This document shows positions 39,055 to 62,919 of a DNA stretch of 64,000 nt, piece by piece (within the stretch, counting starts at the first letter, position 1; each line of letters opens with the position of its first letter). Under the pieces are notes generated by a model. That model was not told where the DNA came from, did no database searches, and saw only the letters and a program-made list of their open reading frames with translations. Source of the stretch: Actinomycetes bacterium (GTDB taxonomy: Bacteria > Actinomycetota > Thermoleophilia > BMS3ABIN01); NCBI GenBank assembly GCA_021791195.1, contig JAJYXB010000024.1, positions 1 to 64,000 on the forward strand. The letters are read 5' to 3'. Made by a program: the position numbers and the translations under genes.

Positions 39055-40839
39055 TTAATTGGGGCTGTCGTCGCCTGAGAGGACAACTTGAGCCGCTCCC
39101 CCGGAGGCCGGTCCTGCTTTCAGACTGCGTAGCCGGTTGAGCATGGCGGCGATCTCGTACCGGCGCGGCAACGCATAGTCGCCGGCGACCGCGCCGCCTT
39201 CGGCTGACGGCCCAAAAACAGGCGCGATGACATCAAGCCCGCCCTCTTCAACCTCGGCCAGCATCCTGTCGAGCACCTGTCCCAGCGTCGCCTTCCCGTC
39301 AAACAGGCCGCGCCGGTGCGCGCTCCAGACAAGGTCGCCGATGGCCCTCGTCTGGCTGGGATCGACCAGTTGCTCGACGGCGGCCAGATCGACAGTCTGC
39401 CTGCCGAACTCGATCGTGCCCAGGCCCCTGGACGAAACCTTCTCGCGCGGACCGCGCCGCGGATTAAGCCCGCCCGCCAGCGGCACCCTGGCGGTCAGGG
39501 GTCCGAAAACTGCGGCCTCGCTCCGGCGCCGGCCGGGCCGGGAAGACGCTACCGCGCGCGCCTGAGCCGTCACCACCCGCGGTTGATAATCCTCCATAGC
39601 CAGGACAGTATCGGCGACATCGAAATAATCGCCTGACCCGCCCATCACCAGCACCGTGGAGACCCCGTGCTCCTTGTACATATTGTGCACCTGATCAATC
39701 AACGGCGTAATCGGCTCCTTGTCCTTGGAAATCAGCCGCTGCATCAACTCATCGCGGATCATGAAATTGGTCGCCGATGTATCTTCGTCGATCAGCAGCA
39801 GCCTGGAACCGGCTTCCAGCGCCTCGATGATGTTCGCCGCCTGCGACGTGCTGCCACTGGCGTTCTCGGTCGAGAAGGCCGATGTATCCTGGCCGAACGG
39901 CAGGTTGGAGATAAAGGGGCTGATATTCACCTTTTCCACCCGGCGGCCGTCTTCTGCCCTGATCTTGACGGCGTCATCCCGTGTCGCCACCACTTCGCGG
40001 CCGTCGCCGGTGACATGGCAGTAAACACCCCGCTCCAGCGCCTTCAGCAGCGTCGACTTCCCATGATAGCCACCGCCAATGATCAACGTCACGCCTTCGG
40101 GAATGCCCATCCCGGATGTCCAGCCGCGATTGGGAAGATCGAAGCCGACGCGCAGCTCCGGGGGGCTCCGAAATCCCACCGCGCGATCACCGGCCAGAGG
40201 CGCCTCGCTGATGCCGCTGGCCCGTGGCAGAACGGAGCCGTCAGCGACGAAAGCGACCAGTTTTTCACGCGCCAGCCGGCTCCGAAGCCACTCCTGGTCC
40301 TCGGCAGCCTTTACGTGCGCCGCCGCTTCCTCGCGGTTTATATTGTCATAAAACAGCGATGACTCAACCAAGCGCGGCACCTCGTCCAGCAGGACGGCCG
40401 CCGCCTCCCGGCCCAGGCAGCGCCGGCCGGCCGCCGGCAGGCCCACGACAAACCGGATCTCGGCGTAGCGTTCATTGATCGTGGCGGCGTTGCGCTCGAG
40501 AATTTCCTGTCCACCGCTGTCTACTCCCACAAATCCCGACTTGCCGGTGCCGCGGTGGCCCTTGACGTTCTTTCTGATCGAGCGGGCAAAGAGCCGCACC
40601 AGAAAATCCTGCATTGCCACCCGTCTGACCTTGCCGGAAAAAAGCTGCGGATCGAAGCCGGCTATTTCCTGCGCTACGCGTACCCGCATCCGTGAGGGAG
40701 CTGCGAACGGGTCCGCCTGAACCCGGTCTATGAACAGCGTGAAGCGTGCAAACGAATGGCTACCGCCCAGATTGTGATATTCCTTGTAGCCTTTGCCTTC
40801 AAGCCGTTCGAGCATCCGCCCCAGGTCGACTGCGTCCAT
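39055..40839 (-). CDS. Predicted ATPase of the ABC class (PF09818 type)
   Basis: The 594-residue soluble protein has a Walker A motif GGGYHGKST (255-263), an extended Walker B RLLLIDEDTSATNFMIRD, and a signature-like FSTENASGSTSQAANI, the layout of the single-chain ABC-class ATPases with no membrane domain. The role of this family is not settled. The C-terminal part (about 450-590) is typical of members. It starts at ATG 40839 after GGAGGTGG. The CysH-like gene follows on the same strand. Confidence 0.85.
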   Translation of the reverse strand: MDAVDLGRMLERLEGKGYKEYHNLGGSHSFARFTLFIDRVQADPFAAPSRMRVRVAQEIAGFDPQLFSGKVRRVAMQDFLVRLFARSIRKNVKGHRGTGKSGFVGVDSGGQEILERNAATINERYAEIRFVVGLPAAGRRCLGREAAAVLLDEVPRLVESSLFYDNINREEAAAHVKAAEDQEWLRSRLAREKLVAFVADGSVLPRASGISEAPLAGDRAVGFRSPPELRVGFDLPNRGWTSGMGIPEGVTLIIGGGYHGKSTLLKALERGVYCHVTGDGREVVATRDDAVKIRAEDGRRVEKVNISPFISNLPFGQDTSAFSTENASGSTSQAANIIEALEAGSRLLLIDEDTSATNFMIRDELMQRLISKDKEPITPLIDQVHNMYKEHGVSTVLVMGGSGDYFDVADTVLAMEDYQPRVVTAQARAVASSRPGRRRSEAAVFGPLTARVPLAGGLNPRRGPREKVSSRGLGTIEFGRQTVDLAAVEQLVDPSQTRAIGDLVWSAHRRGLFDGKATLGQVLDRMLAEVEEGGLDVIAPVFGPSAEGGAVAGDYALPRRYEIAAMLNRLRSLKAGPASGGAAQVVLSGDDSPN

Positions 40840-44164: not shown

Positions 44165-45940
44165 ATGAAAAAACTCGAGACATACTCGACCAATCGGGAA
44201 GAGCTGGGGCAAATGCTGGCGAGGCTGGCCGACGTCGTGAGCACGGAAGAGTCCCGCCGGACGCTCGCAGAAATTGCCCACAATGTCAGCCAGAACCGTT
44301 TCACACTGATCGTTGCCGGGCAGTTCAAGCGGGGCAAGACCACATTCATCAACGCATTGCTGGGCAGCGATCTGCTACCGGTGGCAATCATCCCGGTCAC
44401 ATCGATTATCACCGTGATCGGATACGGCGATGAACTTGGAATTGAACTCTTCTTCCAGGACGGCGGCCGCCGGGAGATCAGCCAGGCGGAGCTGCCGCAC
44501 TTTATCACGGAAAAGCAAAATCCACAAAACCGGGAAAATGTTGACCGGGTTGAAATTCACTATCCTTCACCTTACCTGAAAAACCACGTCGAGCTGATTG
44601 ACACGCCGGGTGTGGCCTCGATCCATAGCCACAATACCGAGACCACATACGGTTATCTGCCAAAAGCAGACGCCGCCATCTTCCTGGTCAGCGTCGATCC
44701 ACCCCTGACAGCGGCAGAGCTTCATTTCCTCAACGACCTGCGCACCTACGCCAACCGCATTTTCTTCGTGCAAAACAAAATTGACACGGTCAGCGAAAGC
44801 GACCGTGTCGAATCGCTGGAATTCACCCGCCGCGCCATCGAAGAGAATCTGGGGCTTGAGAACTTCAAGATTTACCCACTTTCTGCCAGGAACGCGCTGG
44901 AGGGCAAACTGGCGGGGGATCTGGACGCGGTCGAGGACAGCGGCCTGCCGGCCTTCGAACGCATGCTGGAGGAATTCCTGCTGACGGAGAAAGGCAATGT
45001 CATCATCAGCTCGGCTGTCAACAAGACACGGAGCGTGATTGACCAGGAGGTTTTTTCTTTAAGTTTGACGCAGCGCGCCCTGAAGGAACCGTTGGCTGAA
45101 CTGGAAAAAAAGATAAGCCTGTTTGAAGAGGCCCGGCAGGAGATCGAGCTGGAGCGTTCAGACAGCGAGTCGCTGGTGGGGCAGGAAGCAAGGCGCCTGG
45201 TCGACCGGTTGCTGCTGCCAGACCTGGATGCGCTCAAGGAGGAGAAGACGCGCACACTGACCCTGGAGATAAACGCCCTGGCCCGGGATACAGCTGAACT
45301 GGGCAACCGGGAGTTCGCCGAGACGATCAATGAATATCTTCACGACCGCGTGCATGACATCTTTAATGAATGGCGCGTGGCCGAGCAGGACCGGATCGAA
45401 CAGGAGCTCGCCCGGATCATCAGGCGTCTTGTGGAGCGCACCAACCGCATTATCGAAAGACTGACGGCCGTCTCCTCGCAGATTTTTGGCGCCAGCCTGA
45501 GCGGCTTCAGCGTCAGTGAATCCCTCGAAGGCGCATCGTCGTTCAGCTTCAAGATCGATGAAGACGTCAAGGTGGCCCTGGAGAGTATCACGGAAGCCGC
45601 CACGCTGATCATGCCCCGGCGTCTGGCGCACCGCAGAATTTTGAGCGAGGCGCGCGAGCGCACCGCGAAACAGATCGACCGGCATTGCGGGCGGTTGCGC
45701 CATGACCTGACCGGACAGATACTCGAAACCGTCGAGGCATTTCGCAGGCGACTGGCGGCGGTCGTTGAAAACACAAGCAGCGGGATCGAGGAGGCGCTTG
45801 ACACCGGCCGGCGCGCCCAGGCAAAAAGCGCGGCGGAGCTAAGGGAGTTTGAGGAAGAGCTCAACAACCGGCTCGCCGTGCTCAACCAGGTCTCCGAGGA
45901 TCTCGCGCAGTTGCGCCACAACTTGTCTGACACCGCATAA
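44165..45940 (+). CDS. Dynamin-family GTPase under fluoride riboswitch control
   Basis: The 591-residue protein has a dynamin-type GTPase domain: G1 GQFKRGKT (52-59), switch Thr79, G3 DTPG (146-149) and G4 NKID (204-207). A long helical, Glu/Arg-rich region (from about 300) forms the stalk; no transmembrane helix is evident. Bacterial dynamin-like proteins reshape or protect membranes. ATG 44165 is right after the terminator T-run, with GGAGG eight bases upstream. The next gene of the membrane complex starts 34 bp downstream on the same strand. Confidence 0.9.
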   Translation: MKKLETYSTNREELGQMLARLADVVSTEESRRTLAEIAHNVSQNRFTLIVAGQFKRGKTTFINALLGSDLLPVAIIPVTSIITVIGYGDELGIELFFQDGGRREISQAELPHFITEKQNPQNRENVDRVEIHYPSPYLKNHVELIDTPGVASIHSHNTETTYGYLPKADAAIFLVSVDPPLTAAELHFLNDLRTYANRIFFVQNKIDTVSESDRVESLEFTRRAIEENLGLENFKIYPLSARNALEGKLAGDLDAVEDSGLPAFERMLEEFLLTEKGNVIISSAVNKTRSVIDQEVFSLSLTQRALKEPLAELEKKISLFEEARQEIELERSDSESLVGQEARRLVDRLLLPDLDALKEEKTRTLTLEINALARDTAELGNREFAETINEYLHDRVHDIFNEWRVAEQDRIEQELARIIRRLVERTNRIIERLTAVSSQIFGASLSGFSVSESLEGASSFSFKIDEDVKVALESITEAATLIMPRRLAHRRILSEARERTAKQIDRHCGRLRHDLTGQILETVEAFRRRLAAVVENTSSGIEEALDTGRRAQAKSAAELREFEEELNNRLAVLNQVSEDLAQLRHNLSDTA

Positions 45941-45974
45941 ACGTATCTGTGTTACGAAGATCCCAGGGAGCTTC

Positions 45975-46925
45975 ATGGCAGATAAAATTGTGCTGAATCT
46001 GGCCCAGGTGCTATTTGTGATTGCCTTTTCTCCGCTCGCCGCGGGTGTGCTGGCACGGCTCAAGGAAGTGGTGCAGTCAAGGCGGGGGCCGGGCATTTTT
46101 CAGCCATACCGTGATTTATGGAAGCTCTTTCACAAAGACGAAATCGTCTCGGAGGAAAGCTCCTGGATCTTTCGCTTTGCTCCATATCTGATTTTTATCA
46201 TTCCCGTCTATGTGACGCTGCTGATCCCGGTGCTGACGAGTTTTCCGCTTTTTTTCGCCTTTATGGGCGATATGATCGGCGGCGGCTTTGCGCTGGCGCT
46301 GGGCGGTTTCTTCGCCACGCTGGCGGCGATTGACGCCGCCAATCCTTATGGCCCGATGGGCGCCAGCCGGACGCGGATGGTGGGATTTCTGGCCGAACCG
46401 GTTTTCATGATTGTGTTTTTCACCGTTTCGTTTGTCGCCGGCTCGACGATTCCATATATCGTCCAGCAACAATGGATAAACCCGGTGGCGAATTTTTTCA
46501 TGCCCGCCCACGTGCTGCTGCTGCTTGCCTTTCTCATGTTGATTCTGGCTGAGGGAGGCCGCCTCCCCGTGGATAATCCATCCGGCCATTTTGAACTGGC
46601 GATGATCGACGAATCCAAGTCGCTCGAATATTCGGGCCGTGGTTTGGCGCTGGTGAAATGGGGCGGCCATATGAAGCTGTTCGTCCTCATGTGCATCTAT
46701 CTCAATGTGCTGGTGGCCCCCTGGGGGCTGGCCGGAGAACAATCCTTCGGCGCTGTGCTGCTGGCAATCCCCCAGGTGCTTTTGAAGATTTTTGTCTTCC
46801 TGCTCGTGCTGGTGATCATTGAATCCTCGCTCGCCAAACTGCGGCTGTTTCGCATCTCGGAGTTCCTGGGCGCCGCATTTGTCATCTGTGTAGCGGCGAT
46901 GGTCTCGCAGATATTTCCGCTTTGA
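45975..46925 (+). CDS. Hydrogenase-4-type membrane subunit, HyfC/NuoH family
   Basis: This 316-residue, eight-helix protein is the quinone/ion-module anchor subunit (NuoH, HycD/HyfC): it has SRRGPGIFQPYRDLWKLF, AIDAANPYGPMGASRTRMV and the acidic loop ILAEGGRLPVDNPSGHFEL. It connects the soluble arm to the antiporter-like subunits. It starts 34 bp after the dynamin gene with AGGGAG upstream. The complex it belongs to lacks the Ni site (see the large subunit). Confidence 0.9.
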   Translation: MADKIVLNLAQVLFVIAFSPLAAGVLARLKEVVQSRRGPGIFQPYRDLWKLFHKDEIVSEESSWIFRFAPYLIFIIPVYVTLLIPVLTSFPLFFAFMGDMIGGGFALALGGFFATLAAIDAANPYGPMGASRTRMVGFLAEPVFMIVFFTVSFVAGSTIPYIVQQQWINPVANFFMPAHVLLLLAFLMLILAEGGRLPVDNPSGHFELAMIDESKSLEYSGRGLALVKWGGHMKLFVLMCIYLNVLVAPWGLAGEQSFGAVLLAIPQVLLKIFVFLLVLVIIESSLAKLRLFRISEFLGAAFVICVAAMVSQIFPL

Positions 46926-46937
46926 AAGGAAGATGAT

Positions 46938-47633
46938 GTGACAGATCAGCTCCTGGATAACCTGAATGCGCTGGTCACAGGATTGTTTTTGCTGACCGCT
47001 TTTGGCATCGTGGCGATGCGGCAGACGCGCGGCGTTTTTAACCTCTTTATCATCCAGTCCATTCTGCTGGCCCTGTCAGCCCTGATCCTGGGCCTGCGTC
47101 ACGGGTCAGAGGATCTTTACGGGGTGGCCCTGGTGAATATCATCATCAAGCCGCTGATCCTTCCCTGGCTGTTGCGTATTACAGTGCCGGAGGAGGTCTA
47201 TACGCGCCGGGAGGTCAGCCAGGCGCTGAATATCCCGACTTCCCTGCTCATCGCCTTGGCGCTGGCGATCCTGGCTTACTTCATCAGCCAGCCGCTGCTG
47301 AATGCGGTGGCGCCGGAATTTCAGGGTCCGAATGTGCCGATCGGCATCGCCGGCCTGCTGCTGGGGGCGTTTGCCATCACGGTGAGACGGGAGGCGATCC
47401 CGCTGCTTGTTGGCATCCTGGCGATGGAGAACGGCGCATTTTTGAGTGGCATTGCCATTTCTCGCGGCCTGCCACTACTGGTAGAGTTGGCCATCGCCAC
47501 TGATGGCCTGGTCGTTGTCTTTATCATGGGCGTGTTGACCCGCGCCGCAAAAAGGCATATCGGCACGACGGCTGTCGGCGAGCTGGCCCGCCTGAAAGAA
47601 ATGGCGCCGGCTGCCGGCGAGGGGGAAGAATGA
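46938..47633 (+). CDS. Hydrogenase-4 component E-like membrane subunit (HyfE)
   Basis: The 231-residue protein, with about seven hydrophobic segments, resembles HyfE: LFLLTAFGIVAMRQTRGVFNLF near the N-terminus and ENGAFLSGIAISRGLPLLVEL near the C-terminus (NuoK-like core). It starts at GTG 46938, 12 bp after HyfC, and overlaps the next gene by 4 bp. Confidence 0.88.
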   Translation: MTDQLLDNLNALVTGLFLLTAFGIVAMRQTRGVFNLFIIQSILLALSALILGLRHGSEDLYGVALVNIIIKPLILPWLLRITVPEEVYTRREVSQALNIPTSLLIALALAILAYFISQPLLNAVAPEFQGPNVPIGIAGLLLGAFAITVRREAIPLLVGILAMENGAFLSGIAISRGLPLLVELAIATDGLVVVFIMGVLTRAAKRHIGTTAVGELARLKEMAPAAGEGEE

Positions 47634-49153
47634 GCGTCGTTTTCATCCTGTTCCTGCCCCTGATTGCATCGGCGCTTATCCTGCTGCCGCTTCGGCAAGC
47701 CTGGGCGGGCATGATCACCCTTGCCTCTTCGCTGGCGGTGCTGTTTCTGGCCGCGCGGGTGGCGCTGCTGGTTTCTGCCGGCAACATAGTGACTTCCGTG
47801 CTCGGCATCGGCTTGCTGAAATGGATTTCTGTCGATGGCTTAAGCAGCCTGATATTGCTGCTGATCGCCTTTATCGGCGCCACCGCGGCCCTGTATTCTG
47901 TCGGTTACATGGCGCACGGAAGCTTCACGCCCCGCAAAATACGCATCTACTACATCAATTTCAACATGTTTGTCTTCTCCATGCTCGCCATTCCCATTCT
48001 CGCCGAGCCGACGCTTGTTTGGATCTCTGTAGCGCTGACAACGCTCACTTCAGCCCTGATTGTATCTTTTGATGATACGCGCGAAGCGCTGGAGGCGGCA
48101 TGGAAGTATGTTGTGCTCTCGCTTATGGGAGCCGGCGTGGCGCTGTTTGGATTCCTGCTGCTGTACTCGGCCCTGCAGGCTTCCGGCAGCGACGCCACGT
48201 TCTCCTGGAGCGGCCTGATCCAGGCTGCGCCCAGGATGCCCCCAGCCTTGCTGCAGGTTGCGTTCCTGCTGATCCTCATCGGCCTGGGAACCAAAGCCGG
48301 GCTCGTGCCGATGCACACCTGGCTGCCAGACGCCCACAGCCAGGCGCCTTCACCGGTGTGCGCCCTGCTTTCCGGGATTGAAACCTCGGCCATTCTTTAC
48401 GTGATCATGCGGCTGTTCCCGATCATGTCCGCTTCACCGGATGCCCACGCCGGCACCCTGGCGATCATTCTTGGCCTGGTCTCTGCCGGAACCGCGGCTT
48501 TCCTGCTGCTACAGGCCAGCGATTACAAGCGCATGTTTGCTTTTTCCACCGTGGAACACATGGGCATTATTCTGACCGCCATCGGACTGGGCGCCGCCGG
48601 CGCGAACTACGCTGCCCTGCAACAGGTCATCAGCCACAGTGTGACCAAGTCATTCTGTTTCTTTGCCGCCGGGATCGTGCTGATGAATCTGGGAACGCGG
48701 AAAATCACTTCGGTGCGAGGGCTGATTTCCAAATCTCCCTTTACCGGCGCCGCGCTTGTTTTTGGAGGCTTGGCAATCACCGGCGCGCCGCCGCTGGCGG
48801 TTTTTTTAAGTGAGTTCTCCATTCTGAAGGCGGGGCTGGCGCAGGCAGATTATCTGGCCATGGGACTCCTGTCATTTTTTATCCTGGTCGCCTTCTTTGG
48901 CATCATGATGAAAATCAACCAGATGGTGTTTGGCAAATCGGGAAATGAAACCGGGGGCGCCCTACCCCCGGTTTCCGGAACCGGGTCCGGGCAACAGCAG
49001 TCAGACAGTTGTGATGCCGGCAGGTTTCATCTGCCTGTCACCTGCCGGCTGGCGATGATACTGGCGGCCTTGCCTGTGCTGGTGCTTGGCCTCTATATTC
49101 CCCAACCGCTGCAGAACCTGCTAACGCAGGCAACTGCCGCCCTGACGAGATAA
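47630..49153 (+). CDS. Antiporter-like subunit, HyfF/NuoM-N family
   Basis: The 507-residue protein has about 14 hydrophobic segments and the proton-conducting-transporter motif: ALEAAWKYVVLSLMG, GLVPMHTWLPDAHSQAPSPV, and the key Lys in DYKRMFAFSTVEHMG. It should carry one proton or sodium path. The start overlaps HyfE by 4 bp; the HyfG-like gene follows after 8 bp. Confidence 0.92.
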   Translation: MSVVFILFLPLIASALILLPLRQAWAGMITLASSLAVLFLAARVALLVSAGNIVTSVLGIGLLKWISVDGLSSLILLLIAFIGATAALYSVGYMAHGSFTPRKIRIYYINFNMFVFSMLAIPILAEPTLVWISVALTTLTSALIVSFDDTREALEAAWKYVVLSLMGAGVALFGFLLLYSALQASGSDATFSWSGLIQAAPRMPPALLQVAFLLILIGLGTKAGLVPMHTWLPDAHSQAPSPVCALLSGIETSAILYVIMRLFPIMSASPDAHAGTLAIILGLVSAGTAAFLLLQASDYKRMFAFSTVEHMGIILTAIGLGAAGANYAALQQVISHSVTKSFCFFAAGIVLMNLGTRKITSVRGLISKSPFTGAALVFGGLAITGAPPLAVFLSEFSILKAGLAQADYLAMGLLSFFILVAFFGIMMKINQMVFGKSGNETGGALPPVSGTGSGQQQSDSCDAGRFHLPVTCRLAMILAALPVLVLGLYIPQPLQNLLTQATAALTR

Positions 49154-49161
49154 TCGCGATC

Positions 49162-50739
49162 ATGGCGCTCCTGCTGAAAGAACAAATTGATAAGCGGTGG
49201 CCGGACCAGGCAAAGTGCACCTGCACCGGCGGCCCTCACCTGTATGAAATCACTTGTGCCCGGGAGACGCTGGCGGAGCTCTGCGGCTGGCTTTTTATTG
49301 ATATGCGACTTAAATTTGCTACTCTTGTTGTCGAAGAGGCGTCCCGGGAGTGGCGACTGCGTTACATTTTTTATGGTGGCGCCGGCGCCGTGTGGGTGCA
49401 TGTTCTGGCCAGCTCGCCCTGCTCTGAGGAATCTTTTCCCAGTATTGTCGAATCTGTTCATGCTGCGGACTGGCACGAGCGCGAGGCCGAGGACATGTTT
49501 GGCCTGACATTCGCCGGCCATCCCCGCCTCGGTGATTTTATCCTGCACGATGACGCCTGGCAGGAAAACGTCCAGCCGATGCGGCATCATTTTGACCCGC
49601 AGATGGCTATCCGCTTCCGCAAACCCGCCGCTGACTGGCGGCCGCACCGCATCGTGCAGGAAGAGGGCGCGTTTGTCATGCCGGTGGGGCCGAAATTCTC
49701 CGGCGCCACCGAATCAGTTCATTTTCTGCTGGAAACCGTGGGCGAGGATGTCATCCGCTTTACCCCCCGCCTGTTTTATAAATGGCGAGCGATAGAGAAG
49801 CTGGCGGAAGCCAAACCCGCCGGGCGGGTCCTGCTGCTGGCAGAACGCTTTGCCGCGACAACCGCCTTCGCTCACGGACTGGCGTATTGCCAGGCTGTCG
49901 AGCGGATTTGCGGGGCAGAAGTCCCGCCGCGGGCGGCAGCCCTGCGTATTTTTCTGGCGGAACTCGAGCGGCTGCGGCAGCATGCCGGCGCGATTCAGGA
50001 AATCTGCGAATCCACGGCGCTGGTCGTTGCCGCCAGCGGGGCCGGGATCGTGGAAGAAGATTTGCTGCGCATCTCTGGTGAGCTCACCGGCCATCGCTAC
50101 CTGTTTGGCATGCTGGCGCCGGGAGGCTTGCTGGTCGACTTGCCAGACCTGGCCTGCCAGCGGGCGCTGCGAGGCTCACAACAAGTCCTGCGACAACTGG
50201 AAAAACTCGAAGCGCGGCTGCGTGTTTCCAGCAGTTTTCTCGACCGCCTCGAAGAGGTTGGCCTGGTGGCTCACCAGGTGGCGACTGCTTACGGCTTGCT
50301 GGGGCCGGTTGCGCGCGCCTCGGCAGACGCTCATGATCTGCGCCGCGAACATCCCTATTCAGGCTACGAGAAATTTCAGTTCGAGGTGCCCAGCGAGGAG
50401 GAAGGCGACGGTTACGCGCGGCTGCGGGTGCTGTTTGCCGAATGCCGGCAATCGGTGCGCATCATGGAGCAGGCGCTCGACACGGTCGCGGGCGGCAGCG
50501 TTTGCCGATCCTTCCCGTTTCGCGCGGGCGCCGCCCTGGGCTGGGCCGAAGCGCCGCGCGGCGCCACGTTTCATTGGGTGCGCCTCGATGATCAGGGGTA
50601 CATCGACCGCTACCATGTCACGGCGCCTTCGTTTGCAAACTGGCACGGGTTCCATGCCGCCGTCGAAAATTTTGCCTTTCAGGATTTTCCCATCATGCTC
50701 GCATCCTTCGACCTTTCCGTATCCGAGGCCGACAGATGA
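49162..50739 (+). CDS. Ehr-type large subunit (HyfG/NuoCD-like) lacking all Ni-binding cysteines
   Basis: The 525-residue protein joins a NuoC-like part (to about 145, with ADWHEREAEDMFGLTFAGHP) to a hydrogenase/NuoD-like part (about 170-525). The N-terminal Ni motif ERxCGxC reads ERFAATTAFAHG, with Ala231 and Thr234 in the Cys positions, and the C-terminal motif DPCxxC reads DLSVSE, with Ser519 and Glu522. All four ligands are gone, so it cannot be a NiFe hydrogenase. It matches the energy-converting hydrogenase-related (Ehr) complexes. The redox partner, if any, is unknown. Confidence 0.85.
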   Translation: MALLLKEQIDKRWPDQAKCTCTGGPHLYEITCARETLAELCGWLFIDMRLKFATLVVEEASREWRLRYIFYGGAGAVWVHVLASSPCSEESFPSIVESVHAADWHEREAEDMFGLTFAGHPRLGDFILHDDAWQENVQPMRHHFDPQMAIRFRKPAADWRPHRIVQEEGAFVMPVGPKFSGATESVHFLLETVGEDVIRFTPRLFYKWRAIEKLAEAKPAGRVLLLAERFAATTAFAHGLAYCQAVERICGAEVPPRAAALRIFLAELERLRQHAGAIQEICESTALVVAASGAGIVEEDLLRISGELTGHRYLFGMLAPGGLLVDLPDLACQRALRGSQQVLRQLEKLEARLRVSSSFLDRLEEVGLVAHQVATAYGLLGPVARASADAHDLRREHPYSGYEKFQFEVPSEEEGDGYARLRVLFAECRQSVRIMEQALDTVAGGSVCRSFPFRAGAALGWAEAPRGATFHWVRLDDQGYIDRYHVTAPSFANWHGFHAAVENFAFQDFPIMLASFDLSVSEADR

Positions 50740-57837: not shown

Positions 57838-57990
57838 CGGGCTTATCCGCCGGTGGCAGTTCGCCGGAGAAGCCCTTGCCTTTACTTGCGCCCCAGGCTT
57901 CTCATGCGGGGTGGCCTTGCTGACCCAAGGCGGATAAAACGGGGTCGAAGGTGGTAACATACCTGCGAGCAGAAGGAGGTGCAGAACCGC

Positions 57991-59052
57991 ATGAAAGCTG
58001 ACAGGGAAATCCGGCTGACGCGGCTCGCGCATGGCTCCGGCTGAGCGTGTAAGCTGAGTCCGTCGGACTTGCAGGAAGTTCTTAAAATAATGCCGCCGCA
58101 CCGGGACGCAAATATCCTCGGTGGATTCGACTCCGGTGAGGATTGTTCCATTTACCGCATCTCGGAAGACACGGCCATCGTGCAGACGGTCGATTATTTC
58201 ACGCCAGTGGTGGACGATCCCTACCAGTACGGCGCCATCGCGGTGGCCAACGCGCTCAGCGACATCTACGCGATGGGCGCCAGGCCACTGTTCGCGCTGA
58301 ATGTCGTCGGCTTTCACGCCAAAGGGCTGCCCCTGGAAATCCTCAAGCAGATCATGCGCGGCGGGCTGGAAAAGGCGCGGGAGGCCGGCATCGAGATCAT
58401 CGGCGGCCACACCGTTGACGACCGCGAGCCCAAGTACGGAGTCGCGGTGACAGCGCTGGGAAATCCGGCGGACCTGGTTTACAACTCTACCGCCCAGCCT
58501 GGCGACGTACTGTTCCTTACCAAACCGCTCGGACTGGGCATTCTCACCACGGGAATCAAGCGCGGCACCACCAGCCAGGCCGGCATCGACCGGGCGATCG
58601 AGGTCATGTCCCGGTTAAACTGCGACGCGTCTGAGGCGATGGTGAGCGTGGGCGTCAGCGCCTGCACTGACATCACCGGCTATGGTCTGCTGGGCCACAT
58701 GGTCGAGATGACCCGCGGCAGTGGAGTCGGCGCCCGCATTCACGCGCGAGCGGTTCCCGTGATCCAGGCTGCGCGTGACATGATCGGCGCGGACCTTGGC
58801 GCCGTGCCCGGCGGTTCCAGGAGAAACCTCGAATACGTCAAGCGGTATGTGAATTTCGACCCCGGCATCACGGAGGAGGAGCGGCTGATACTGGCCGACG
58901 CGCAAACGTCCGGTGGACTGCTGATCGCCTGCCCGGCGGAAAAGGCCGACCAGCTGGAACAGGCGCTGCGCCAGGCCGGCACGATCACCGCGGCCCGCAT
59001 CGGGATCATGGAAGCCGAGGACGATACCGGCCGCATCGACGTCGTCCCTTAA
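57991..59052 (+). CDS. selD: Selenide, water dikinase SelD, itself a selenoprotein (UGA at 58042)
   Basis: SelD makes selenophosphate from selenide and ATP. From ATG 57991 (after AAGGAGG) the frame reads RLTRLAHGSG, then UGA at 58042-58044, then ACKLSPSDLQEVL and the rest of SelD (QTVDYFTPVVDDPYQYG, GGHTVDDREPKYG). In SelD this site is Cys or Sec (GSG-U/C-xCK), so the UGA is almost certainly Sec18. ORF callers that stop at UGA would start at TTG 58069 and lose the active site. The product is 353 residues. It implies the cell has selB, selA and selC elsewhere. A hairpin follows the UGA. Confidence 0.96.
58042..58074 (+). promoter_or_regulatory. UGA-Sec codon and bacterial SECIS-like hairpin in selD
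   Basis: After the UGA, CTGAGTCC (58054-58061) can pair with GGACT (58065-58069) and CAG (58072-58074) with a two-base bulge, leaving the loop GTC 18-20 bases after the UGA. A G at the first loop position and this distance fit bacterial SECIS elements recognised by SelB. Confidence 0.75.
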
Positions 59053-59094: not shown

Positions 59095-62000
59095 TCAGGC
59101 GGCCCGGGGACGCTCTGTCCGCAGCACCGCCTGCAGCACTGCCTCGAACTCTTCCAGATTGAACGGCTTGGAAAGATAGGGCTTGCCGAGTTCGGTGAGA
59201 TATCCCTGGGTGCTCGGGTTGATCGAATCACCGGAGATGAAGATGAACCGGTCGGTCATCGCCGGATCCATTTCGCGCACAGCCTTGAACAGCGAGGGGC
59301 CGTCCATGCCGGGCATCTTGACGTCGCTGACAATGCAGTCAAATGCACGCTGCTTCAGCATCGTCAGCGCCGCCTTGCCGTCTTTGGCCGTTTCCACCTC
59401 GTGGCCGTTTCGCCGCAATGTTTCCGCCAGCACTTCGCGGATGCTGTTTTCGTCGTCGACCAGCAGCACTTTTCCGGTAAGGTGTTCCGGCCGCTGCGGC
59501 TCACGCTCGGGTGCGCCGGTCACCGCGACCGTCACCACCGGCAGCTCGACGACAATCGCCGCTCCGGGACCGGCGCCCGACTCCACCCAGATGCGGCCGT
59601 CGTGTTCCTCGACGACGCCGTAGCAGACGCTGAGTCCGAGCCCGGTGCCCTTGCCTACGTCCTTGGTGGTAAAAAAGGGTTCGAAAATGCGGTCCTGCAA
59701 CTCTTCCGGGATCCCCGGACCGTCGTCCGCAAAGACAACGCGGATGTTGCCCTGGGTTTTTCCGGTGGAAACCTTCAACGATCCCGAGCCGCTGGTTTCC
59801 AGCATCGCCTGTTCAGCATTGGTGATCAGATTGAGAAAGGCCTGCTGTAGCTGGTGCGGGTCGGCCATCGTCTGCGGCAGATCTTCGCCGAGACTGGTCT
59901 CGATCTGGATGTTGTTGACCCGCAAATCATAACTCTTCAGCTCCAGCGAATCCTTCACGACAGCATTAACGTCGACCGGGCTCCGTTCGGCCTTGTGCTT
60001 GCGAGCGAAAGATAGCAGATGCCGAACGATCCTGGTGGCGCGCTCGGCTTCACGGCGGATGGCCTCGGCGTCGCGCCTCACGTTTTCATCGATGTCCTGC
60101 GATAGCAGCAGCTGCGAATAACCGATGACGCCCGTCAGCGGGTTGTTGATCTCGTGGGCGACGCCGGATACCAGCCGTCCGACCGCCACCATCTTCTCTG
60201 ACTGCAGAAGTTGCTGGCGCATGCGTTTGGCCTCGGTGATGTCGCGCAGGAAATGAACCGCGCCCACGCTCCGGCCTTCGGCGTCGAACATCGTATCAAC
60301 AGTAAGCTCGAGCACGCGCCCATCCGGCGTTTCCTGCTCGGCCTGCACGGGTCCGTCCCCCAGCGAAGCGCGGGACATGGGACAATCGCCTGGTTCATGC
60401 GAGGAGTCATGGATCACTTCGTAGCAACTCCGTCCCAGAAGGTCATTAATGGTTGCGCCAAACATCGCCGCGCCGGCGGCATTCAGCCGCTTAATGTTGT
60501 GATTTTTGCCGACGATCACGATGCCTTCGGTGATGCTGTCAAAGGTTGCTTCCCATTCGGTCTTGGCACGAGAAACGTCTTCGAACAGCTGCTGGTTGGC
60601 GATCGCCAGCGCCACGTAGCTGGCGACCGGTTTCAGCTCTTCCAGATCCGCATCGCGGTAGGCATTTTTTTTCATGCTGGAGAGGTTCAGCGAGCCTATC
60701 ACCTGCCCCTTGGCCACCACCGGCATCAAAAGCTGCGAACGGAATCCTTCGGCCGCCAGCTGCTCCTGTCCCAAGCTGACGCTGCCGGCGGTGATATCCC
60801 CGGAAAAGTAGGGCTCACCCGACCTGATGACCATCCCGGGAAGCGATCCGGCAGCGGGGAATATCAGCTCTTCTTTCCACTCCCGGGGACCTTTGCCGCT
60901 CTGGGCCAGGCGCCTGAGCATACCGCCACCAACGTCGATGGCAATGCTAAGCCGGTCAAAACCTACAAGCTTCCGTGTCTCGCTGATGAACTCATCGAAT
61001 ACCTCGTCCAGCTCCAGGCTTGATCCAAGCGCCGCCAGCAACCTGCTTCTGGCCAGTGCTTTCTCCGTATGCTGCAACGACTCCTGATAAAGGATGGCAT
61101 TGTCCAGAGCGGAGCCGACCTGCATCCCGGCCAGAGTCATCAGTCTCATGTCGTCCTCGGAAAACTCTCCCCGGCGGCTGGCGACCAGGGATATGACCCC
61201 CAGGTTCCTGTTCTTCGATTTTAGCGGCGCCCCCACGTATGAAAGCAGCCCGGCTTCGACAACCTCCGGTGTAACCGACTTCGAATCTCTCAGGTCGTTG
61301 TCAATCAGCGAGCTTTCTATTTCCAGGATGTGCTGGGGACAACCCTGTCCCGTGGGCAGGCGTTCCACCTTTGCCAGCAAACTTTCGTCCATGCCCTTGG
61401 CGGCCGCAAGGACCAGGTCGCCGCTGACATCTTCCAGCAGATGGATGGTGGCGGCATCAGCCTGGCGCATCTCCAGCACCTTCTCCAGGGCGGAACGCAT
61501 CATGGTCGCCGGATCCAGCGACTCGGACATCGCCTCGTTCATGCTGTTGAGGCTGGCCAGCTCCCGGCTGTGCCGTTCAAGATTGCGGTTGATACGCTGC
61601 AGCTCTGTAATATCATGCATGACTACCGTGCGGCCGCCTTCCTGTCCTTCATCATTAAGGATAGGCACTACTTCCACGCTGTAACAGCGGCCCCCGACTT
61701 CGATCTCCAGCTCCTGCACGGCGTTGCGGTGAAAGACCCCGCACCGCTCGCAGGCATCCCTTTTCTGCCGGAAAGTCCCCTGGATCCCGTTGGAGCAGTG
61801 CGTAGCACACATCAGCCAGCAGCGCTTGTCCTTGCTGTTGTAAGAAGGGCAATCCTGCTTTTCGCAGTTCCTGACTTCCCGGCAGCGGATCATTTCGGCA
61901 GGCTTTATGCTGTGCAGCAACGCCTTCTCCAGCTGCGGCACGCCAACCTCGGTGGTGCGTTCCAGCTCCAGCGCCGTTTTGCCCAGTGCTTTCTCCGCGG

Positions 62001-62919
62001 CGGGATTGACTGAAATGATCACGCCATCCCGGTCCGCAACCAGAATGCCGTCACCGATGCTCTGGTGTATCGACCGGATGCGCGCTTTCTCTTCCTCCAG
62101 CTGCGTAGTCCGCCTCAGCAGCGAGTCCGCCATGAAATTGAACGAATTGCCCAGCTGGGCCAGCTCATCATTCCCGCTGGCCACCGGTACCTGGCAGCCC
62201 AGATTTCCCCGGGACATTTCACGGGCGGCCGCCGACATCCGTTTGATCGGCACCAGCAGCCGCCGGCCGGAAATGCCGGCCACGACCAGGCCGATGAGAA
62301 CGGCGGCGATCGAGCCGATCCAGCCCATCCGGGAGGCCGCATTTTCCGAGCGCGACTGGACAGCGGCGGTGTTGTTCAGATCTTTCGTGTAGGCGCTGCT
62401 GATTTTTGACCGAAGGGCTAACATCTGGTCATACTGCCGCCGCAACTGCTCCTCCTGAGCGCCCAGATTGGAGCCGGGCTTGCCCGCTTGCGGGACAACG
62501 ACGTTGAGGAACGTTGCCTGCGTCTGCTGGTGCAGGGCAGCGCACTGGCTGAGCCAGTTGCGTTCTTCGCCGGTGGCCGCCATCTTCTCGGCCTGATGAT
62601 GGCTGTTGTCGACCGCGGCGGCGGCGGCGGTAAAGGCGGCGAGCGAAGCCTGGTGGTCCGTCACCCCTCTGTAGTGGTCCAGAAACAGCTCGTGCATGGC
62701 CAGCAGCTCCTGCTGCAGGCCATCCTTCATTTTGGCCAGATCGGCCAGCGCCAGGTTGCGATTCGCCAGATCCGCCTGGGTGCTGTTGGAGATAATCACA
62801 TAACGATAAAAAAGCGCCAGCGGCAGAGAAAATACAAGCACGACCGCCAGGGCCGGGACTGCTATCTTCAGTCCCAGCCGGCTGCGAAAGACGCTCAGGA
62901 ATTCTTTGACTCGGCTCAT
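59095..62919 (-). CDS. Hybrid sensor histidine kinase with a two-CW module
   Basis: This 1274-residue membrane kinase has, in order: helix 1 (19-42), an extracytoplasmic helical sensor (43-198), helix 2 (199-217), HAMP (217-270), PAS (280-440) that holds a cysteine-rich two-CW module (346-395), GAF (464-610), GAF (633-778), PAS (785-895), HisKA with His922 in GVAHEINNPL, HATPase (1022-1125; DDGPGI, GTGLGL), and a receiver (1149-1265) with phospho-acceptor Asp1199 and Lys1251. The two-CW cysteines probably bind a metal or cluster and may sense redox state. The built-in receiver suggests phosphorelay. No partner regulator is adjacent. Confidence 0.93.
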   Translation of the reverse strand: MSRVKEFLSVFRSRLGLKIAVPALAVVLVFSLPLALFYRYVIISNSTQADLANRNLALADLAKMKDGLQQELLAMHELFLDHYRGVTDHQASLAAFTAAAAAVDNSHHQAEKMAATGEERNWLSQCAALHQQTQATFLNVVVPQAGKPGSNLGAQEEQLRRQYDQMLALRSKISSAYTKDLNNTAAVQSRSENAASRMGWIGSIAAVLIGLVVAGISGRRLLVPIKRMSAAAREMSRGNLGCQVPVASGNDELAQLGNSFNFMADSLLRRTTQLEEEKARIRSIHQSIGDGILVADRDGVIISVNPAAEKALGKTALELERTTEVGVPQLEKALLHSIKPAEMIRCREVRNCEKQDCPSYNSKDKRCWLMCATHCSNGIQGTFRQKRDACERCGVFHRNAVQELEIEVGGRCYSVEVVPILNDEGQEGGRTVVMHDITELQRINRNLERHSRELASLNSMNEAMSESLDPATMMRSALEKVLEMRQADAATIHLLEDVSGDLVLAAAKGMDESLLAKVERLPTGQGCPQHILEIESSLIDNDLRDSKSVTPEVVEAGLLSYVGAPLKSKNRNLGVISLVASRRGEFSEDDMRLMTLAGMQVGSALDNAILYQESLQHTEKALARSRLLAALGSSLELDEVFDEFISETRKLVGFDRLSIAIDVGGGMLRRLAQSGKGPREWKEELIFPAAGSLPGMVIRSGEPYFSGDITAGSVSLGQEQLAAEGFRSQLLMPVVAKGQVIGSLNLSSMKKNAYRDADLEELKPVASYVALAIANQQLFEDVSRAKTEWEATFDSITEGIVIVGKNHNIKRLNAAGAAMFGATINDLLGRSCYEVIHDSSHEPGDCPMSRASLGDGPVQAEQETPDGRVLELTVDTMFDAEGRSVGAVHFLRDITEAKRMRQQLLQSEKMVAVGRLVSGVAHEINNPLTGVIGYSQLLLSQDIDENVRRDAEAIRREAERATRIVRHLLSFARKHKAERSPVDVNAVVKDSLELKSYDLRVNNIQIETSLGEDLPQTMADPHQLQQAFLNLITNAEQAMLETSGSGSLKVSTGKTQGNIRVVFADDGPGIPEELQDRIFEPFFTTKDVGKGTGLGLSVCYGVVEEHDGRIWVESGAGPGAAIVVELPVVTVAVTGAPEREPQRPEHLTGKVLLVDDENSIREVLAETLRRNGHEVETAKDGKAALTMLKQRAFDCIVSDVKMPGMDGPSLFKAVREMDPAMTDRFIFISGDSINPSTQGYLTELGKPYLSKPFNLEEFEAVLQAVLRTERPRAA

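Follow-up and report, generated by a model that had tools for sequence, protein, structure and literature searches.

Introduction

The closest described relatives of the protein considered here are two selenide water dikinases (selenophosphate synthetases, SelD): that of Aquifex aeolicus with its native selenocysteine (Sec), PDB entries 2yye and 2zod, and that of E. coli, PDB 3u0o. The A. aeolicus enzyme (SelD/SPS2) and the one encoded at our locus are alike in family, Sec position, motif and the presence of two AIR-synthase domains, and we see no substantive difference between them. The E. coli enzyme is homologous over most of the protein, however, it has Cys where Sec is predicted here.

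Sec-containing SelD is described in PMC9312934 as one of the two selenoproteins found most widely in bacteria and has long been known; actinobacterial selenoproteomes that include SelD appear in a listing dating from 2006 (PMC1794560). The bacterial model of the SECIS element, as restated in PMC13188914, has a loop of 3–9 nt, a stem of 4–16 bp and a G in the first two loop positions, together with a spacing of 16–37 nt and an energy of −7.5 kcal/mol or lower.

Here we analyse the selD gene in a 64,000-nucleotide stretch of DNA (the window) from an actinobacterial genome of the order BMS3ABIN01, in which an in-frame UGA hides the true start of the gene from standard gene calling.

Results

The selD gene continues upstream through a UGA codon

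The gene, its UGA with the conservation of the latter, the hairpin and the genes of the decoding machinery were all established by computation (Table 1). The selD frame starts with ATG 57991, reaches the TGA after 17 codons (ATG included) and stays open from there to TAA 59050–59052. With the TGA, codon 18, translated as Sec, the product begins with MKADREIRLTRLAHGSGUACKLSPSDL. Its score against TIGR00476 (selD) then increases from 334.9 to 367.7 bits, and profile position 1 is included in the match. Both this score and that against NF002098 (349.5 bits) are above the curated cut-offs (125 and 299 bits, respectively), and the Pfam domains are AIRS and AIRS_C. The best solved relative is 3u0o, which has Cys at the position of the UGA; the motif HGSG-U-ACK aligns with HGAGCGCK of that protein and follows the catalytic pattern G-x-G-C/U-x-C/A/S-K.

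Table 1. Features of the selD locus and of the Sec system of the genome. Positions without prefix are those of the window; the prefix G000:C gives the contig of the genome.
Feature	Position	Strand	Remarks and basis
selD, selenide water dikinase (selenophosphate synthetase)	57991..59052	+	353 aa with Sec18; TGA=U translation, profiles, Pfam
In-frame UGA, predicted selenocysteine codon, catalytic Cys/Sec position	58042..58044	+	Cys alignment, conservation in the order
Shine-Dalgarno sequence AAGGAGGT	57973..57980	+	10 nt upstream of ATG 57991; direct reading
TTG, plain table-11 start call	58069..58071	+	within the SECIS 3' arm; not the real start
SECIS hairpin (predicted) UGAGUCC-GUC-GGACUUG	58055..58071	+	7 bp, two G-U; stem rule, model fit, codon freezing
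selA	G000:C9:49111-50466		589.5 bits
selB	G000:C9:47153-49033	-	adjoins selA; 360.4 bits
selC, tRNA-Sec	G000:C9:38100-38191		70.6 bits; ARAGORN tRNA-SeC, anticodon tca (UCA)
Formate dehydrogenase alpha subunit (predicted Sec)	L101, G000:C15:60318-61586		DHCART-U-HAP; one in-frame UGA
NiFeSe hydrogenase large subunit (predicted Sec)	L145, G000:C6:15341-16810		C-terminal HTFDP-U-MACAVHV...
AhpC/Prx-like (peroxiredoxin/thioredoxin-like) domain fused to pyridine-nucleotide-disulphide (flavin) oxidoreductase	L149:1465-3097, G000:C4:22955-24586		U-Q-G-C

The sequence-only reading had assigned a SelD N-terminus to the 26 codons before the apparent TTG start, with the UGA at the catalytic Cys/Sec position and a strong ribosome site ahead of the ATG, and had held that standard gene calling truncates the gene. 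All of this stands: the codon count is right (57991–58068), the upstream part adds 33 bits to the TIGR00476 match, the ribosome site is spaced by 10 nt from the ATG, and a plain table-11 ORF call indeed starts at TTG 58069, so that the first 26 codons are lost. This call is also what speaks for the alternative, namely that selD really begins at the TTG, with an untranslated region upstream, and yields a short SelD. However, such a product would be devoid of Sec, of the ACK motif and of the catalytic N-terminus, the strong ribosome site precedes the ATG and not the TTG, and the protein sequence upstream of the TTG is conserved in 17 species. We consider a start at the TTG very improbable. It is practically certain that 57991–59052 encodes a Sec-containing SelD of the standard kind and, judging from known families, the protein is predicted to synthesize selenophosphate.

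Conservation of the UGA

SelD was found in 17 of the order's 19 genomes, where the protein of the window is 65–78% identical to its relatives, and each of these genes has exactly one TGA at the same codon. Phylum-wide, 96 of the 150 matches listed carry a TGA and 54 do not. TGA at the same codon is also present in homologues from records named Nitrospirae, Chloroflexi, Clostridiales, Acidobacteria, Planctomycetota and others, with Cys in a few. Among homologues the UGA is conserved as a Sec/Cys pair, as expected of a bacterial selenoprotein gene. The two genomes of the order in which SelD was not found (G001, 86% complete, and G009, 94% complete) nevertheless contain selA and a UGA-containing FdhA, and the missing SelD is most likely due to assembly gaps.

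The distribution of the TGA bears on the possibility that it is a nonsense mutation or a sequencing error and that selD is a pseudogene here, a reading that has the presence of the stop codon in its favour and nothing more. A sequencing error is in practice excluded by the conservation of the UGA in 16 other species. The single TGA at one and the same codon in 17 genomes of the order, a TGA in most of the listed matches of the phylum, the intact Sec machinery and the frozen SECIS codons described below all argue against a pseudogene, which we regard as improbable in the extreme.

Sec decoding machinery and other predicted selenoproteins

The sequence-only reading had made the Sec assignment depend on the presence of selA, selB and selC, and all three are found in the genome, on one contig (C9). 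Each of the order's 19 genomes has selA. Between selC and selB lies the gene of a repetitive protein of 2731 residues that looks Ig-like by eye (L088:4798-12993, G000:C9).

The UGA could also be read as Trp or another residue via an altered code, since the selD frame is equally open under TGA=W. However, tRNA-Sec, SelA and SelB are all present, each of four different proteins has its single UGA at the position of a redox-active Cys, and elsewhere in the window UGA behaves as a normal stop, as at 46923 between hydrogenase genes. An altered code is thus as improbable as the pseudogene, and the UGA is best read as Sec.

Other selenoproteins of the genome were sought family by family, so that four, selD included, is a minimum count. 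The search for further redox genes interrupted by UGA, which had also been proposed, gave at least three more with canonical motifs. For the formate dehydrogenase alpha subunit, one TGA recurs in the top matches from most of the order's genomes. The Prx-like/flavin oxidoreductase fusion is a probable selenoprotein: 15 copies of full or almost full length, drawn from 14 of the 19 genomes, carry one in-frame TGA, and its gene has a 7-bp hairpin that is largely conserved in relatives. Its oxidoreductase domain resembles NF049943, the NCBIfam type III sulfide quinone reductase, selenoprotein subtype, below the cut-off (236.9 vs 525 bits). A limited literature search on such a selenoprotein fusion found nothing.

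Within the window, a codon-usage scan, which is blind to short N-terminal cases like selD, found no further selenoprotein. It gave two candidates with positive margin, and both were rejected: that at 46923 is the ordinary stop between two adjacent same-frame hydrogenase-membrane genes, and that at 40693 lies opposite a well-formed minus-strand gene. The region 45849–50640 is a membrane-bound hydrogenase-like cluster (group 4, complex-I-like) with NADHdh, Oxidored_q2 and Proton_antipo_M domains and with a weak NiFe large-subunit match at 50515–50640. Convergent with selD, a 1274-residue hybrid histidine kinase (HAMP, PAS, GAF, HisKA, HATPase, receiver) is encoded on the minus strand at 59095–62919.

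Predicted SECIS hairpin after the UGA

A SECIS-like hairpin after the UGA had been noted from the letters of the window; it is real, but its best placement is the one given in Table 1. Counted from the U of the UGA, nt 14–20 pair with nt 24–30 (58055–58061 with 58065–58071), and the apical loop GUC (58062–58064) is 17 nt downstream of the UGA. With a loop of 3 nt that starts with GU, a stem of 7 bp, this spacing and an energy of −8.4 kcal/mol (nt 10–36), the hairpin is inside all limits of the bacterial model (PMC13188914).

The predicted minimum-energy fold differs from the chosen hairpin when longer segments are folded. That of 58042–58085 (CUGA/UCGG upper stem, loop GUCCG) was rejected, because two of its upper pairs fail in 12 of the 17 relatives, while the AGUCC/GGACU register is kept. 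An alternative GGACUU/AAGUUC hairpin was also discarded, as relatives do not preserve its 3' arm. A scan of 57900–58200 against Rfam returned a chance match only.

All four UGA genes of the genome have an uninterrupted stem of 7 bp or more whose loop begins at nt 21–23 from the U of the UGA; among the 2,023 other TGAs of the 64-kb window, only 1.2% show this stem length and spacing. In this respect the genome provides its own control, with a single SelB and a single geometry.

In the order's 17 species with SelD, the register of the hairpin is kept almost invariably. Counting Sec as +1, the selD codons +4 (AAG), +6 (AGT), +7 (CCG), +8 (TCG) and +9 (GAC) are invariant in these species wherever the residue is conserved; serine has six codons. 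No other five-codon stretch of selD is as frozen as +6 to +10, where the mean excess synonymous identity is 0.61, compared with a mean of 0.094 (sd 0.121) for the 138 five-codon windows along selD. This synonymous freezing reflects selection on the RNA and not on the protein alone. Within the order the stem is too little varied to show any covariation.

Two hairpin positions in selD

In most Sec-selD genes examined outside the order, the loop of the strongest hairpin is 33 nt past the UGA, 16 nt further downstream than here, and this hairpin is typically GCGCAG-GUN-CUGCGC. This distal hairpin, with at least 6 of 7 pairs, is present in 32 of 45 Sec-SelDs outside the order and in none of 11 Cys-SelDs, although part of the signal may be derived from the protein, because A-Q-V-L-R, when encoded by common codons, tends towards a palindrome. 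The proximal hairpin, with the loop at 17 nt, is also found in a few unrelated lineages. Some selD genes have both hairpins together; this order keeps the proximal one only. At least one of the two occurs in 56 of 62 Sec-SelDs, whereas Cys-SelDs mostly lack it (1 of 11). The trade-off between the two positions is suggestive but falls short of significance if the order enters as a single observation (Fisher p = 0.097). We propose, tentatively and with somewhat more doubt than confidence, that the SECIS element has been relocated within the selD gene family; genes with both hairpins would then be the intermediate state.

Discussion

On the basis of known families we infer Sec insertion, SelB binding and catalysis as follows. 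The ribosome would initiate at AUG 57991, while SelA would make Sec-tRNA-Sec from Ser-tRNA-Sec. At UGA 58042, SelB bound to the 58055–58071 hairpin would deliver the Sec-tRNA-Sec, and termination would thereby be avoided. The 353-residue SelD would then use Sec18 in the conversion of selenide and ATP to selenophosphate, which would feed SelA and thus the other selenoproteins of the cell as well as the synthesis of SelD itself.

Since Sec-SelD is already known in bacteria and in Actinobacteria, the reading is right but ordinary: the start of one gene is corrected and no new principle is added. The two hairpin positions could nevertheless serve as a natural series for probing the distances from the UGA at which SelB can function. 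Last but not least, the genome has at least four predicted selenoproteins, and the whole of an order known here from metagenome-assembled genomes alone is predicted to use selenocysteine.
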